NCBI RefSeq assembly: GCF_946151065.1
Contig: NZ_CAMGZA010000001.1
Location: 1,054,001-1,118,000, forward strand
DNA: 64,000 bases
DNA from: Microbacterium sp. Marseille-Q6965
Lineage (GTDB): Bacteria > Actinomycetota > Actinomycetes > Actinomycetales > Microbacteriaceae
Reading direction: 5' to 3'
Shown here: one piece after another, positions 5,722-9,636 of the stretch
How positions within the stretch are numbered: the stretch's first letter is position 1
How the letters are laid out: each line of letters opens with the position of its first letter
Notes under the pieces: generated by a model
Database searches by the model: none
What the model was told of the DNA's origin: nothing
The model's input: only the letters and a program-made list of their open reading frames with translations
Position numbers and translations under genes: made by a program

Positions 5722-6219
5722 TCAGGCGGCGAGTGCGAGGTACGGCTCCCAGCGCGGGTCGCCGCGCTCCACGCCGCGCACGGTCCACGCCCCGCCGCGC
5801 GGGGGGCGGGGCGTGATGCGCAGCTCCCACCCCATCTCCTGGGGGGTGCGGTCGCTCTTGATGTTGTTGCACCGCAGGCACGCGGCCACGAGGTTCTCCC
5901 AGCTGTCTGCACCGCCGCGCGAGCGCGGCAGGATGTGGTCGATCGTCGAGGCCGGCTTGCCGCAGTAACCGCAGCGGTGGTTGTCGCGGCGCAGCACCCC
6001 GCGGCGCGTCACCGGCACGCGGCGGCCGCCGGGCACGCGCACGTAGCGGGTGAGCACGATGACGGCGGGACGCTCGTACGACCCGTGGGTGCCCCAGACC
6101 GGTTCGTCCTCGATCCGCTCGACGATGCTCGCCTTCTCGTTCATCACGAGCACGAGCGCGCGCTTGAACGAGACGACCGCGAGGGGCTCATAGCCCGCGT
6201 TCAACACCAGAGTGCGCAT
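5722..6219 (-). CDS. HNH endonuclease family protein
   Basis: 165 aa. The N-terminal half (MRTLVLNAGYEPLAVVSFKR) is a conserved leader of a widespread actinobacterial HNH family. The HNH core follows: CGYCG, then IDHILPRSRGG with the catalytic His, NLVAACLRCNNIKSDRTP supplying the Asn and the second Cys pair of the zinc site, and the final conserved Lys. The role is unknown; the family is chromosomal and not part of a toxin operon here. ATG 6219 is chosen because GGACAGG lies just upstream. No clear -10 is seen in its 98-nt upstream gap, so it may depend on read-through from the mini-gene at 6332-6442. Confidence 0.85.
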   Translation of the reverse strand: MRTLVLNAGYEPLAVVSFKRALVLVMNEKASIVERIEDEPVWGTHGSYERPAVIVLTRYVRVPGGRRVPVTRRGVLRRDNHRCGYCGKPASTIDHILPRSRGGADSWENLVAACLRCNNIKSDRTPQEMGWELRITPRPPRGGAWTVRGVERGDPRWEPYLALAA

Positions 6220-6316
6220 GCCCTGTCCTTTCGATGGGTCCCGGACGGCTTCCGGGCTCTCGATCCCGTGACGCCACGCTCTGCGGTGGAGCGCGGTGCG
6301 GGGGTGCGCAGGCACG

Positions 6317-6348
6317 AAAAAAGGCGCTGTCTCACAGACAGCGCCTTT
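6317..6348 (-). terminator. strong intrinsic terminator with T-tract
   Basis: Read on the minus strand: a perfect 13-bp stem (6348-6336 with 6332-6320), a 3-nt loop and a run of six T. It is the most canonical intrinsic terminator in the window. It overlaps the stop codon of a putative 36-aa ORF and lies 98 nt upstream of the HNH gene. Confidence 0.85.
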
Positions 6349-6442
6349 CGCACGCGGACGACCCGCGCACCGTGTGCACACGATGCCGAAGCACGTAACG
6401 CCCGAGCGCATCCATGGTGCGGATGCGAGGTATTCGCGACAT
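6332..6442 (-). CDS. putative 36-aa small protein or leader peptide
   Basis: A 37-codon ORF beginning MSRIPRIRTM and ending SACERRCL, rich in Arg and containing two Cys. GGAGGGAGAA sits about 7 nt before its ATG, a better Shine-Dalgarno than most genes here. A -10-like TACTCT is at 6483-6478. The TGA lies in the apical loop of the terminator at 6317-6348, so the last codons form the 5' arm of the stem. This is either a free-standing mini-gene or a leader peptide whose translation would prevent the terminator from folding and let transcription reach the HNH gene. I do not recognise the peptide. The surrounding 408-bp gap (6220-6627) holds otherwise only the M23 terminator. Confidence 0.45.
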   Translation of the reverse strand: MSRIPRIRTMDALGRYVLRHRVHTVRGSSACERRCL

Positions 6443-6477
6443 CGGCTTCTCCCTCCGCTTCACGCGGCGACGGGATC

Positions 6478-6483
6478 AGAGTA
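6478..6483 (-). promoter_or_regulatory. possible -10 for the mini-gene
   Basis: TACTCT on the minus strand, about 35 nt before the mini-gene ATG; no convincing -35. Confidence 0.35.
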
Positions 6484-6582
6484 GCCCTGCGGCGGCGATG
6501 CGGGGCCATCCCGCGGAGGAGAATTCCCGGGCGTGTCGCCGCGGGCGCCCCGCGGACCCGTCCGTCGGCGGCGCAGACGCGA

Positions 6583-6617
6583 CGAGGGCCCCGCGGCGGC
6601 TGCCGACGGGGCCCTCG
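6583..6617 (-). terminator. terminator of the M23 peptidase gene
   Basis: 11-bp perfect stem (6583-6593 with 6607-6617) closed by an inner CGGC/GCCG pairing, starting 11 nt after the M23 stop. It separates the peptidase from the mini-gene downstream. No T-tract. Confidence 0.65.
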
Positions 6618-6627
6618 AAAGCGTGAA

Positions 6628-7503
6628 TCAGTAGGGCAGCCAGGCCTGGGGGCTCACGAGGCCGCCGTTGACGTACACCTCGAAGTGCAGGTGCGGCGCG
6701 GTGGAGCTGCCCGTCGAACCGACGTAGCCGATGACCTGCCCGGCCGTGACCGTCTGCCCCGCGGCGGCCGCGATGGAGGACATGTGCGCGTACCGGGTGG
6801 TCGTGGCGCTGCCGCCCACGTTGCTCTCGATCGTCACGGCGTTGCCGTAGCCGCCGAACCAGCCGGACTGCGAGACCACGCCATCCGCGGCGGCGAAGAT
6901 CGGGGTGCCGGTCGAGGCGAGCAGGTCCCAGCCCTTGTGGTAGCCGGAGTCGCCGAGCCCACGACCCGAGGTCCAGGCGCCGGCGGGGAGCGGGAAGACG
7001 ACACCCTCGCTCGGCGCGGAGGGGGTCGCGTTTCCGCTGTAGACCGACGCCGCGGAGGACGACGCTGCCGCCGCCGCGGCCTCGGCCGCCATCTCCTTGG
7101 CGCGCTTGGCCGCCGCGGCGGCGGCCTTCTCCTTCTCGATCTCGCTCGCCGTGGTCCCCGAGTAGCTCGAGGCGCTGAGCTGCGAGGCGGTGGCGCCGCC
7201 ACCGACGGTGAGCGACTGCGCGTCGGCCTCGGCGATGTCGTGGGCGGTCACCTGCTCCGCGGTCGCCTCGCCGCCGCCCTGCGTGGCGGCGTAGGCGGGG
7301 ATGGCGACGCCGGCGATGAGCGCGAGAACCGCGGTCATCGTGCCCGCCGCGCGCAGCGGCCGGATCTTCGGCGCGCTCTCGGCGCGCAGGGCGCGCTCGG
7401 CGATGCGGATGTCGCGGCGGCTGATCTTCGCCGGCGCGGGGGCGCCGGTCCGGGTGGGGTCCGTGGCCTCGGGCGAGCCTGCGGACATCGGGTTCTGAGT
7501 CAA
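6628..7503 (-). CDS. M23 family metallopeptidase (secreted, LytM-type peptidoglycan hydrolase)
   Basis: 291 aa. A cytoplasmic start is followed by one hydrophobic segment (TMTAVLALIAGVAIPAYA, about residues 52-69) serving as signal or anchor. An Ala/Lys/Glu-rich coiled coil (about residues 120-150) precedes the C-terminal M23 domain, with zinc ligands in HKGWD and HLHFE and the conserved YAHMSSI. Such enzymes cleave peptide cross-links of peptidoglycan outside the membrane. The TTG at 7503 is chosen because GGAGG lies 8 nt upstream; the first in-frame ATG is five codons later. The gene has a ~140-nt 5' leader with pseudoknot potential and its own terminator. Confidence 0.9.
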   Translation of the reverse strand: MTQNPMSAGSPEATDPTRTGAPAPAKISRRDIRIAERALRAESAPKIRPLRAAGTMTAVLALIAGVAIPAYAATQGGGEATAEQVTAHDIAEADAQSLTVGGGATASQLSASSYSGTTASEIEKEKAAAAAAKRAKEMAAEAAAAAASSSAASVYSGNATPSAPSEGVVFPLPAGAWTSGRGLGDSGYHKGWDLLASTGTPIFAAADGVVSQSGWFGGYGNAVTIESNVGGSATTTRYAHMSSIAAAAGQTVTAGQVIGYVGSTGSSTAPHLHFEVYVNGGLVSPQAWLPY

Positions 7504-7511
7504 GACGTGTT

Positions 7512-7611
7512 CCTCCGTCGCCTCGCGCTCGGGTAGCGCCGGCTCGTCAGCACTTGTCGTCGGACAGTGAATCCTGCAAGAAGGACGAGCCGGAGAGGCG
7601 ATTGCTTGCAG
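7512..7611 (-). promoter_or_regulatory. structured 5' leader of the M23 gene with H-type pseudoknot potential
   Basis: On the minus strand four segments occur in the order S1 (7611-7605, CTGCAAG), S2 (7593-7584, CCGGCTCGTC), S1' (7580-7574, CTTGCAG), S2' (7548-7539, GACGAGCCGG). S1 pairs with S1' over 7 bp, extendable to 9-10 with G-U pairs. S2 pairs with S2' over 10 bp. The interlaced order is that of an H-type pseudoknot, with connecting loops of 11, 3 and 25 nt. Loop 1 contains TCGCCTC (7601-7595), which is complementary to GAGGCGA at 7524-7518, directly beside the Shine-Dalgarno (7516-7512). I do not recognise the leader as a known riboswitch. Confidence 0.5.
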
Positions 7612-7648
7612 AACGGGTTCGTGGACCTTGCGGCCTCGGGATTTCCCC

Positions 7649-7676
7649 ACCCTACGGGAAGATAACGAAAATGTCA
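7649..7676 (-). promoter_or_regulatory. promoter of the M23 peptidase gene
   Basis: TGACAT (7676-7671), a 16-nt spacer and TAGGGT (7654-7649) on the minus strand put the transcription start near 7642, about 140 nt before the start codon. GTGACAT and GTTATC around the -35 form a loose repeat that could bind a regulator such as MtrA; this is a weak guess. Confidence 0.5.
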
Positions 7677-7716
7677 CGCCCCGTTCCTGAGAGCGTCACC
7701 GCGCTCGCAGAAGGAC

Positions 7717-8415
7717 TCAGCGGGCCGCGACGAGGAAGACGTGCGACGCGATCTCGACCGGCAGTTCGAGCGCCTCGTCGCTGCCGTCCATGTGCACGAG
7801 CACGTAGCCCTCGCTGTAGCGGAAGTCGCCCGAGGCGCCCGGCACGACGCCGGCCACGCGCAGCTGCTGCAGCAGTTCGGGGTCGACCTGCGCCGGCTCG
7901 GCCAGGCGCCGCACCGTGCCCTGGATCGGGCCGCCCTGCGCGTCGAGCGCCTTCACCAGCCCGATGACGCCCTCGTCGAAGTCGCGGCTGGGCTCGCCGC
8001 CGATGAGGTCGAGCCCGGGGATCGGGTTGCCGTAGGGCGACTCCGTGGGGCTGCCCAGCAGCTCGATGAGGCGGCGCTCCACCTGCTCGCTCATCACGTG
8101 CTCCCAGCGGCACGCCTCCTCGTGGACATAGGCCCAGTCGAGGCCGATGACGTCCGAGAGCAGCCGCTCGGCCAGGCGGTGCTTGCGCATCACGTCCACG
8201 GCCTTCTGCCGGCCGACCTCAGACAGCTCAAGGCGACGGTCCTCGCCCACGTGCACGAGTCCGTCGCGCTCCATGCGGCCGACCGTCTGCGAGACCGTCG
8301 GACCCGAGTGCCCGAGCCGCTCGGAGATGCGCGCGCGCAGCGGCACGATGTTCTCCTCCTCGAGCTCGAGGATGGTGCGAAGGTACATCTCCGTCGTGTC
8401 GATCAGGTCGGTCAT
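7717..8415 (-). CDS. DtxR/IdeR-family metal-dependent transcriptional regulator
   Basis: 232 aa, the length of full DtxR/IdeR proteins. The N-terminal winged helix (about residues 1-70) has the family's TTEMYLRTILELEEE and a recognition helix SGPTVSQTVGRMERDGL. The dimerisation and metal-binding domain follows with HRLAERLL, CRWEHVMSE and the ligand-bearing helices. A C-terminal SH3-like/FeoA domain completes it. These regulators use Fe(II) or Mn(II) as corepressor of uptake genes. Start ATG 8415 is preceded by GGAGG. A -10-like TAGGAT lies further upstream. No DtxR-type palindrome was seen near its own promoter. Confidence 0.92.
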   Translation of the reverse strand: MTDLIDTTEMYLRTILELEEENIVPLRARISERLGHSGPTVSQTVGRMERDGLVHVGEDRRLELSEVGRQKAVDVMRKHRLAERLLSDVIGLDWAYVHEEACRWEHVMSEQVERRLIELLGSPTESPYGNPIPGLDLIGGEPSRDFDEGVIGLVKALDAQGGPIQGTVRRLAEPAQVDPELLQQLRVAGVVPGASGDFRYSEGYVLVHMDGSDEALELPVEIASHVFLVAAR

Positions 8416-8463
8416 CGGGGCCTCCGTCGGGTTCCTCCGGCAATCCTATTCGGCGCCGAGTGA

Positions 8464-9636
<1,173 letters not shown>

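Follow-up and report, generated by a model that had tools for sequence, protein, structure and literature searches.

Introduction

Riboswitches that fold as an H-type pseudoknot near the ribosome site include SAM-II. The same interlaced two-helix topology, placed in a 5' leader near the Shine-Dalgarno sequence, is described for SAM-V (PMC6061858) and for the preQ1 classes (PMC11625349). In actinobacteria, the c-di-AMP riboswitch of C. glutamicum nlpC is described as an OFF switch, with translation as its most likely point of action (PMC9960051), and ydaO-type leaders are reported on several cell-wall hydrolase genes of Streptomyces (PMC10117811). Structured RNAs tied to actinobacterial genes also include the ANTAR targets (PMC8164766).

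Here we analyze the leader of an M23 peptidase gene within a 64,000-nt stretch of DNA from Microbacterium sp. Marseille-Q6965 (hereinafter designated the window). An earlier note, made from the letters of the window, had proposed an H-type pseudoknot in this leader and had named the c-di-AMP leaders of actinobacterial cell-wall hydrolases as a comparison. The latter pointer was right: the c-di-AMP riboswitch (ydaO/yuaA, RF00379) stands at the same locus in sister families, where it leads, as the leader does here, an NlpC/P60 or M23 peptidase gene with a DtxR-like gene upstream and an HNH gene downstream.

The leader lies between a conserved promoter and the ribosome site

The M23 peptidase gene (Peptidase_M23 PF01551, E 1.8e-31) occupies positions 6628-7503 on the minus strand, which carries all features described below, and starts with TTG at 7503-7501. 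A DtxR-family regulator gene (7717-8415; PF02742/PF01325) serves as the upstream synteny marker, and an HNH endonuclease gene (5722-6219; PF01844), also found beside some RF00379 loci in sister families, as the downstream one. TTG is the hydrolase start codon in 87/87 aligned leaders according to a script-based start call, a constancy that suggests selection for weak initiation.

The promoter predicted from the sequence and the alignment consists of a –35 element GTGACA (7672-7677), a 17-nt spacer TTTTCGTTATCTTCCCG (7655-7671) and a –10 element TAGGGT (7649-7654), with transcription starting at about 7642. The pattern GTGAC-N17-19-TA recurs in 86/87 leaders, 85 of those at a single spacing; a strict sigma-70 scan of 6200-8600 found no promoter. 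Given the conserved promoter, a transcription start downstream of the first pseudoknot strand is unlikely. The spacer is strongly conserved within the genus, being kept in relatives as CGTTATCTTCCGG (column frequencies of the alignment), and is a possible activator or repressor site. By eye, a GTTACC-N5-GTTA repeat is present upstream of the promoter in other genera (L153, L157, L160 and L165). This repeat may be an MtrA-type site.

From promoter to start codon, the leader is composed of P0, S1, the P1 5' strand, S2, S1', P4, S2', P3, the P1 3' strand and the Shine-Dalgarno sequence. The four interlaced segments of the proposed pseudoknot read, in position and letters, exactly as the earlier note gave them: S1 (CTGCAAG, 7605-7611, extendable to 7614) faces S1' (CTTGCAG, 7574-7580), and S2 (CCGGCTCGTC, 7584-7593, with a conserved core at 7591-7584; also designated P2) faces S2' (GACGAGCCGG, 7539-7548). 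P1 joins TCGCCTC (7595-7601) to the complementary GAGGCGA (7518-7524), and the Shine-Dalgarno sequence GGAGG, assigned from sequence and alignment, follows at 7512-7516. Two further hairpins are P4 (CACT...AGTG, 7551-7569), within the S2 loop, and P3 (GCGCT-ACCCG-AGCGC, 7525-7539). The complementarity of S1, S2 and P1 was stated from the window alone, before relatives were considered; P3 and P4 were taken from the alignment. P0, a small 5' hairpin (GGCC-GCAA-GGTC, 7624-7635), shows 3/4 of its pairs in the centroid fold; it is weakly supported, with a mean fold z of –1.06 in 16 diverse leaders, and relatives appear by eye to carry a longer, two-part hairpin at its place.

Helix P1 encloses S2 and P3, and S1/S1' crosses both P1 and S2. 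The pairing of TCGCCTC with GAGGCGA beside the Shine-Dalgarno sequence, proposed earlier as a switch of ribosome access, is complementary as stated there and is conserved in relatives, but it does not compete with the S2 fold, since it nests around S2 and P3 and can form together with S2. The leader directly adjoins the ribosome site of a gene: the distance from the last P1 model column to the GGAG that follows is 0-2 nt in 87/87 leaders, in an alignment fitted to P1.

Chance and fold energy in a single leader

After dinucleotide shuffling of the 143-nt leader, 17/5,000 sequences contain an interlaced pair of perfect 7-bp and 10-bp stems, 142/5,000 an interlaced pair of 7 and 8 bp, and 74/5,000 a perfect 10-bp helix of any kind. 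The interlaced stems are thus moderately unusual for one leader and no proof alone; the proof comes from the relatives. The nested minimum free energy of the window leader is ordinary (z –1.33; 20/200 shuffles fold equally well). Searching single sequences for the pseudoknot with a free descriptor proved unspecific, with shuffles scoring equally high, and this approach was dropped.

Both pseudoknot helices are backed by compensatory change

Covariance model R1 was built from 14 sequences and holds P1, P2 (S2), P3 and P4 without S1, which makes an R1-made alignment a fair test of S1. An initial alignment (A3) had 103 rows, of which 16 were removed before the S1 permutation test on 80 leaders: L060-L066 (7 rows), L102-L105 (4 rows), L096, which has no S2 arm, and 4 weak second hits. 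A new alignment (A4; 87 rows, 85 distinct) was then built with R1 from 83 selected sources, using an E cut.

In A4, the nested helices, towards which the alignment leans, are paired in 94.4% of cells and show both-side changes in 20/23 pairs. S2 counts 8 pairs and 97.8% of cells, with both-side changes in 7/8, and S2' pairs and covaries with it in relatives. All 5 pairs of P3 (93.2% of cells) and all 4 of P4 (92.5%) have both-side changes, with 17-20 of 85 rows gapped at P4. P1 counts 6 pairs and 91.7% of cells, its outermost pair being non-standard in 22/81 cells. S1 is paired in 83.4% of cells compared with 67.9 ± 0.9 after shuffling, and its covariation score is 0.475 compared with 0.208 for shuffled and 0.07-0.14 for slid controls. 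The number of S1 pairs with both-side changes (9) was equalled in 62/500 shuffles, and the S1 pair of columns 9-42 is unpaired in 40/84 cells.

Own-strand pairing of S1 with S1' in relatives was measured against pairing with the strands of other leaders, in permutations that ignore the tree. Among the 80 distinct of 87 leaders, the own S1 duplex has a mean of –14.5 kcal/mol and the cross duplex –9.1 kcal/mol, a difference reached in 0/100,000 permutations. For 16 leaders below 70% identity, the values are –15.1 and –9.2 kcal/mol for S1 (0/100,000) and –13.3 and –9.7 kcal/mol for S2 (0/20,000). The effect persists in 21 leaders from other genera (–14.6 versus –8.7 kcal/mol; 0/100,000), a set that combines 5 rows of A4 with the 16 of 51 rows in alignment A5 that come from the leader position; L100 was omitted as a near copy of L099. 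S1 is not paired in the genus leaders L078 and L095, and the exceptions in other genera are L161, L167 and L098, the last two of which seem misaligned by eye.

In a home-made, R-scape-like test, substitutions were placed on a FastTree tree. This tree-aware test gave E < 0.05 for none of the individual column pairs; the structure pairs nevertheless make up 8 of the top 10 among 7,503 column pairs, with the top-ranked pair in P3. Summed over all 32 pairs, G is 755 compared with a null of 16 ± 55, and for S1 it is 255 compared with 4 ± 30 (maximum 100 in 200 simulations). With an 80% identity cut (35 rows), the sums are 297 compared with 8 ± 22 overall and 81 compared with 0 ± 11 for S1. With a 70% cut (16 rows), the overall sum still stands out (139 compared with 5 ± 14), whereas the S1 sum over fixed columns does not rise above the null (10 compared with 1 ± 8), probably because the S1 register slides between columns. 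Both helices of the H-type pseudoknot, S1/S1' and S2/S2', covary in relatives and are backed by compensatory changes, as the earlier note had predicted for a genuine fold, with no single pair at E < 0.05.

Distribution of the leader in Microbacteriaceae

A blastn search with the leader gave matches in 17/58 genomes, the own genome included. Two of the matches (L015 and L016) are coding sequence by eye with no M23 match and were discarded; the remaining 15 have an M23 gene downstream. R1 matched 274/295 genus genomes at E≤0.001, nearly always once per genome, and 21/295 had no R1 match at this threshold. When 30 weaker R1 matches were searched again with fuller scoring, all 30 were recovered. 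The contigs C8, C12 and C16 of genome G291 hold three extra weak model matches of equal score, possibly a repeated element.

Whole-genome scans of Microbacteriaceae, limited to scoring roughly a dozen candidates in each genome, found R1 in 16/299 genomes and a further model, R2, in 21/299. By inspection, 6/10 of the R1 hits and 8/15 of the R2 hits outside the genus lie at the right locus, and the other 4 and 7 are chance. A scan of the order matched 21/297 genomes at E≤0.01: 13 belong to the genus, one (L059) to the family and 7 (L060-L066) to other families. The model hits L060-L066, L102-L105 and L112-L118, which fall within unrelated genes or in the gaps between them, look like chance.

A search anchored on the DtxR-like gene has greater sensitivity than a whole-genome scan. 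This gene was found in 29/30 chosen genomes, 25 of which belong to Microbacteriaceae, each to a different genus. In 3/25 of these genera (L163, L172 and L173) no such peptidase gene follows; in L163 and L172 the hydrolase gene and the leader are gone and the HNH gene comes directly after the DtxR-like gene. An unfiltered R2 search gave a match at the leader position in 16/22 other family genera, with E from 1.2e-9 to 0.034. For L162, L159, L156, L171 and L175, all above E of about 0.005, position is the main support, as matches elsewhere reach E 0.0074; the L175 gene has no tblastn match to the peptidases. L168 shows the same leader elements by eye. In the R2 search the leader is absent from 5/22 other genera that have the gene (L151, L152, L154, L169 and L174), and the outgroup loci L176, L177 and L179 gave no R2 match at the leader position.

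Two kinds of natural variant were seen. At L096:1501-1566 (genome G147), the leader lacks the S2/S1' arm and keeps P3, P1 and the M23 gene, and is in effect a natural deletion mutant. In L084, L086, L088 and L089 the hydrolase gene occurs as a tandem pair at a distance of about 1 kb, and both copies have a diverged leader of their own.

A coding leader or an N-terminal extension was rejected, since no frame is preferentially open: over the 40 codons upstream, the three frames contain stops in 31, 32 and 38 of the 87 leaders. By eye, conservation of the loop nucleotides between genera is only moderate, below what a tight small-molecule pocket would lead one to expect.

The leader matches no Rfam family

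With the whole window searched, Rfam 15 gave no gathering-score match over the leader. At E≤10, the only overlap within 7300-7900 is the snoRNA sR32 (9.8 bits against a gathering score of 40, E 6), and at E≤1 nothing was found at a leader in 20 leader loci. RF00379 in particular has no match at E≤10 in 7300-7900 or at E≤1 in the 20 loci. The comparison with known families that the earlier note had called for, ydaO included, thus leaves the leader without a known family. Membership in the c-di-AMP riboswitch family is rejected, as the leader gives no model match and the diadenylate cyclase (DAC) domain is found in 0/199 family genomes.

The helix order also differs from that of RF00379: here P1 encloses S2 and P3, and S1 crosses. 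Alignment of the 3' ends with RF00379 scored 14.43 for other genera, compared with 13.96 for shuffles (sd 0.38, maximum 14.78; about 1.2 sd), and 16.37 for the genus, compared with 15.11 (sd 0.58, maximum 16.98; about 2.2 sd). Sequence homology at the 3' end, being not clearly above shuffles, was rejected.

Compared with SAM-II, SAM-V and preQ1 riboswitches, the leader has stems of 7-10 bp, a closing P1 around S2, inserted P3 and P4, a 5' hairpin and no Rfam match. ANTAR targets are described as two stem-loops with A1/G4 hexaloops (PMC8164766), in contrast to the 5-nt loop of P3 and the pseudoknot core seen here, a distinction made by eye only. A literature search of open-access published papers found no description of such a leader. 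A term search of the motif-discovery papers PMC6429828 and PMC2864571 found, in the text it covered, no mention of peptidase, NlpC or Microbacteri-, and the sections consulted of PMC6106888 mention riboswitches in passing only. Judged by sequence comparison, the leader is a structured mRNA leader specific to Microbacteriaceae and a new RNA family, set apart from ANTAR targets by eye only.

The leader stands where sister families carry the c-di-AMP riboswitch

A DtxR-like gene match is present in 82/82 loci behind A4, the window not counted. The gene downstream of the 87 leaders is M23 in 78 and NlpC/P60 in 6, and is cut by the locus end in 3 (tandem second copies); the leader thus precedes cell-wall peptidase genes in the same synteny as RF00379 does. 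Between genera, the N-terminus and the leader are constant and the catalytic domain varies.

RF00379 occurs in 117/198 genomes of the order, none of the 117 belonging to Microbacteriaceae, which had at least 14 genomes in the set. Among 30 RF00379 loci fetched, a DtxR-like match lies within the 1.5-kb flanks in 16 and HNH in 6; the rest may be other loci. In sister families, DtxR-like, RF00379, NlpC/P60 and HNH follow in this order at L119, L139, L140, L145 and L146, and DtxR-like, RF00379 and M23 at L129 and L132. Arthrobacter sp. VKM Ac-2550 (L224) and SF27 (L231) likewise carry DtxR-like, RF00379 and M23, with HNH also in L231. These two are the only loci with RF00379 before an M23 gene among 20 actinobacterial loci picked from 80 loci of named records; the other 18/20 do not carry it there, and 7 of them lie beside tmRNA. 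As a DtxR-like match is found only in the two Arthrobacter of the 80 loci, these 18 are not at the peptidase-leader locus. From gene order, the new leader is seen to fill the place that the c-di-AMP riboswitch holds at the sister-family locus.

The same RF00379 model that finds the B. subtilis and C. glutamicum riboswitches has no match in 59 genus genomes. The DAC domain PF02457 is present in 122/198 genomes of the order and in 0/199 Microbacteriaceae genomes, which span 85 genera, and in 0/17 genus genomes. Assuming that the same 198 genomes of the order were drawn for both searches, 115 have both RF00379 and PF02457, 2 have RF00379 only, 7 have PF02457 only and 74 have neither. We infer that Microbacteriaceae lost c-di-AMP synthesis, as defined by the DAC domain, along with the riboswitch. 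With both absent, a c-di-AMP sensor is very unlikely, and c-di-AMP is a very unlikely signal here unless an unknown enzyme synthesizes it or the cells import it. Genomes G036, G043 and G045, from other families of the order, are without RF00379 and PF02457, and their locus carries no such leader.

Discussion

The reading we favor, with somewhat better than even confidence, is that the leader belongs to a new cis-regulatory family that gates translation through P1, is probably signal-responsive, and holds a pseudoknot at a former riboswitch place. The folded leader would keep P1 closed against the Shine-Dalgarno sequence, with the pseudoknot holding P1; closed P1 would hinder 30S loading and lower translation of the hydrolase. 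A signal other than c-di-AMP, more likely a small molecule than a protein, may stabilize or open the pseudoknot, and opening of P1 would release 30S loading. By analogy with the C. glutamicum nlpC riboswitch, we expect an OFF switch that acts on translation.

The foremost alternative, which we consider unlikely though worth taking seriously, is that a repressing protein, such as a KH-domain or other RNA-binding protein, binds the leader and that the pseudoknot is its site. In its favor, almost every genus genome with a match has a single one, before one kind of gene, and helices that by eye seem more constrained than loops would resemble those of some protein-binding leaders. Nothing specific speaks against it; a pseudoknot of such size at a former riboswitch position, however, fits a ligand sensor at least equally. 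Less probable again is a constitutive structured leader that serves as a fixed translation brake or RNase shield and answers to no signal. The abutment of P1 on the Shine-Dalgarno sequence in every leader and the 5/22 other genera that do without a leader are compatible with a mere brake, and an over-made hydrolase could be harmful; yet a simple hairpin would be enough for this purpose, and the maintenance of the pseudoknot together with P1, P3 and P4 by compensatory change suggests more. A diverged c-di-AMP (ydaO/RF00379) riboswitch is highly improbable, since the locus, gene type and synteny shared with RF00379 in sister families and a superficial resemblance of the 3' ends (CAGC..ACC...AGGCG..GGAG), which exceeds shuffles by about 1.2 sd in other genera and about 2.2 sd in the genus, are set against the lack of a model hit, 3'-end scores inside the shuffle range, a different helix order and the absence of the DAC domain from all family genomes searched.

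Replacement of the old riboswitch and deep remodeling of it fit these observations indistinguishably, and descent from RF00379 with loss of ligand binding is conceivable. A bolder proposal, to which we give a little less than an even chance, is that c-di-AMP signaling was lost family-wide and that its fixed regulatory position then passed to a new class of riboswitch. The hydrolase locus would still have an RNA sensor, with sensor fold and signal both exchanged, and cell-wall cutting would have come under a new cue. To our knowledge, riboswitch classes have rarely been seen exchanged at one locus; here, one syntenic place shows the old c-di-AMP class, the missing synthase domain and the new leader together. 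If the leader is ligand-responsive, it would represent a new class of riboswitch, and there is a strong hint as to its biology, namely the envelope or osmotic state. The locus offers a handle on how cell-wall hydrolases are controlled without c-di-AMP in a bacterial family, and on the origin of RNA sensors.
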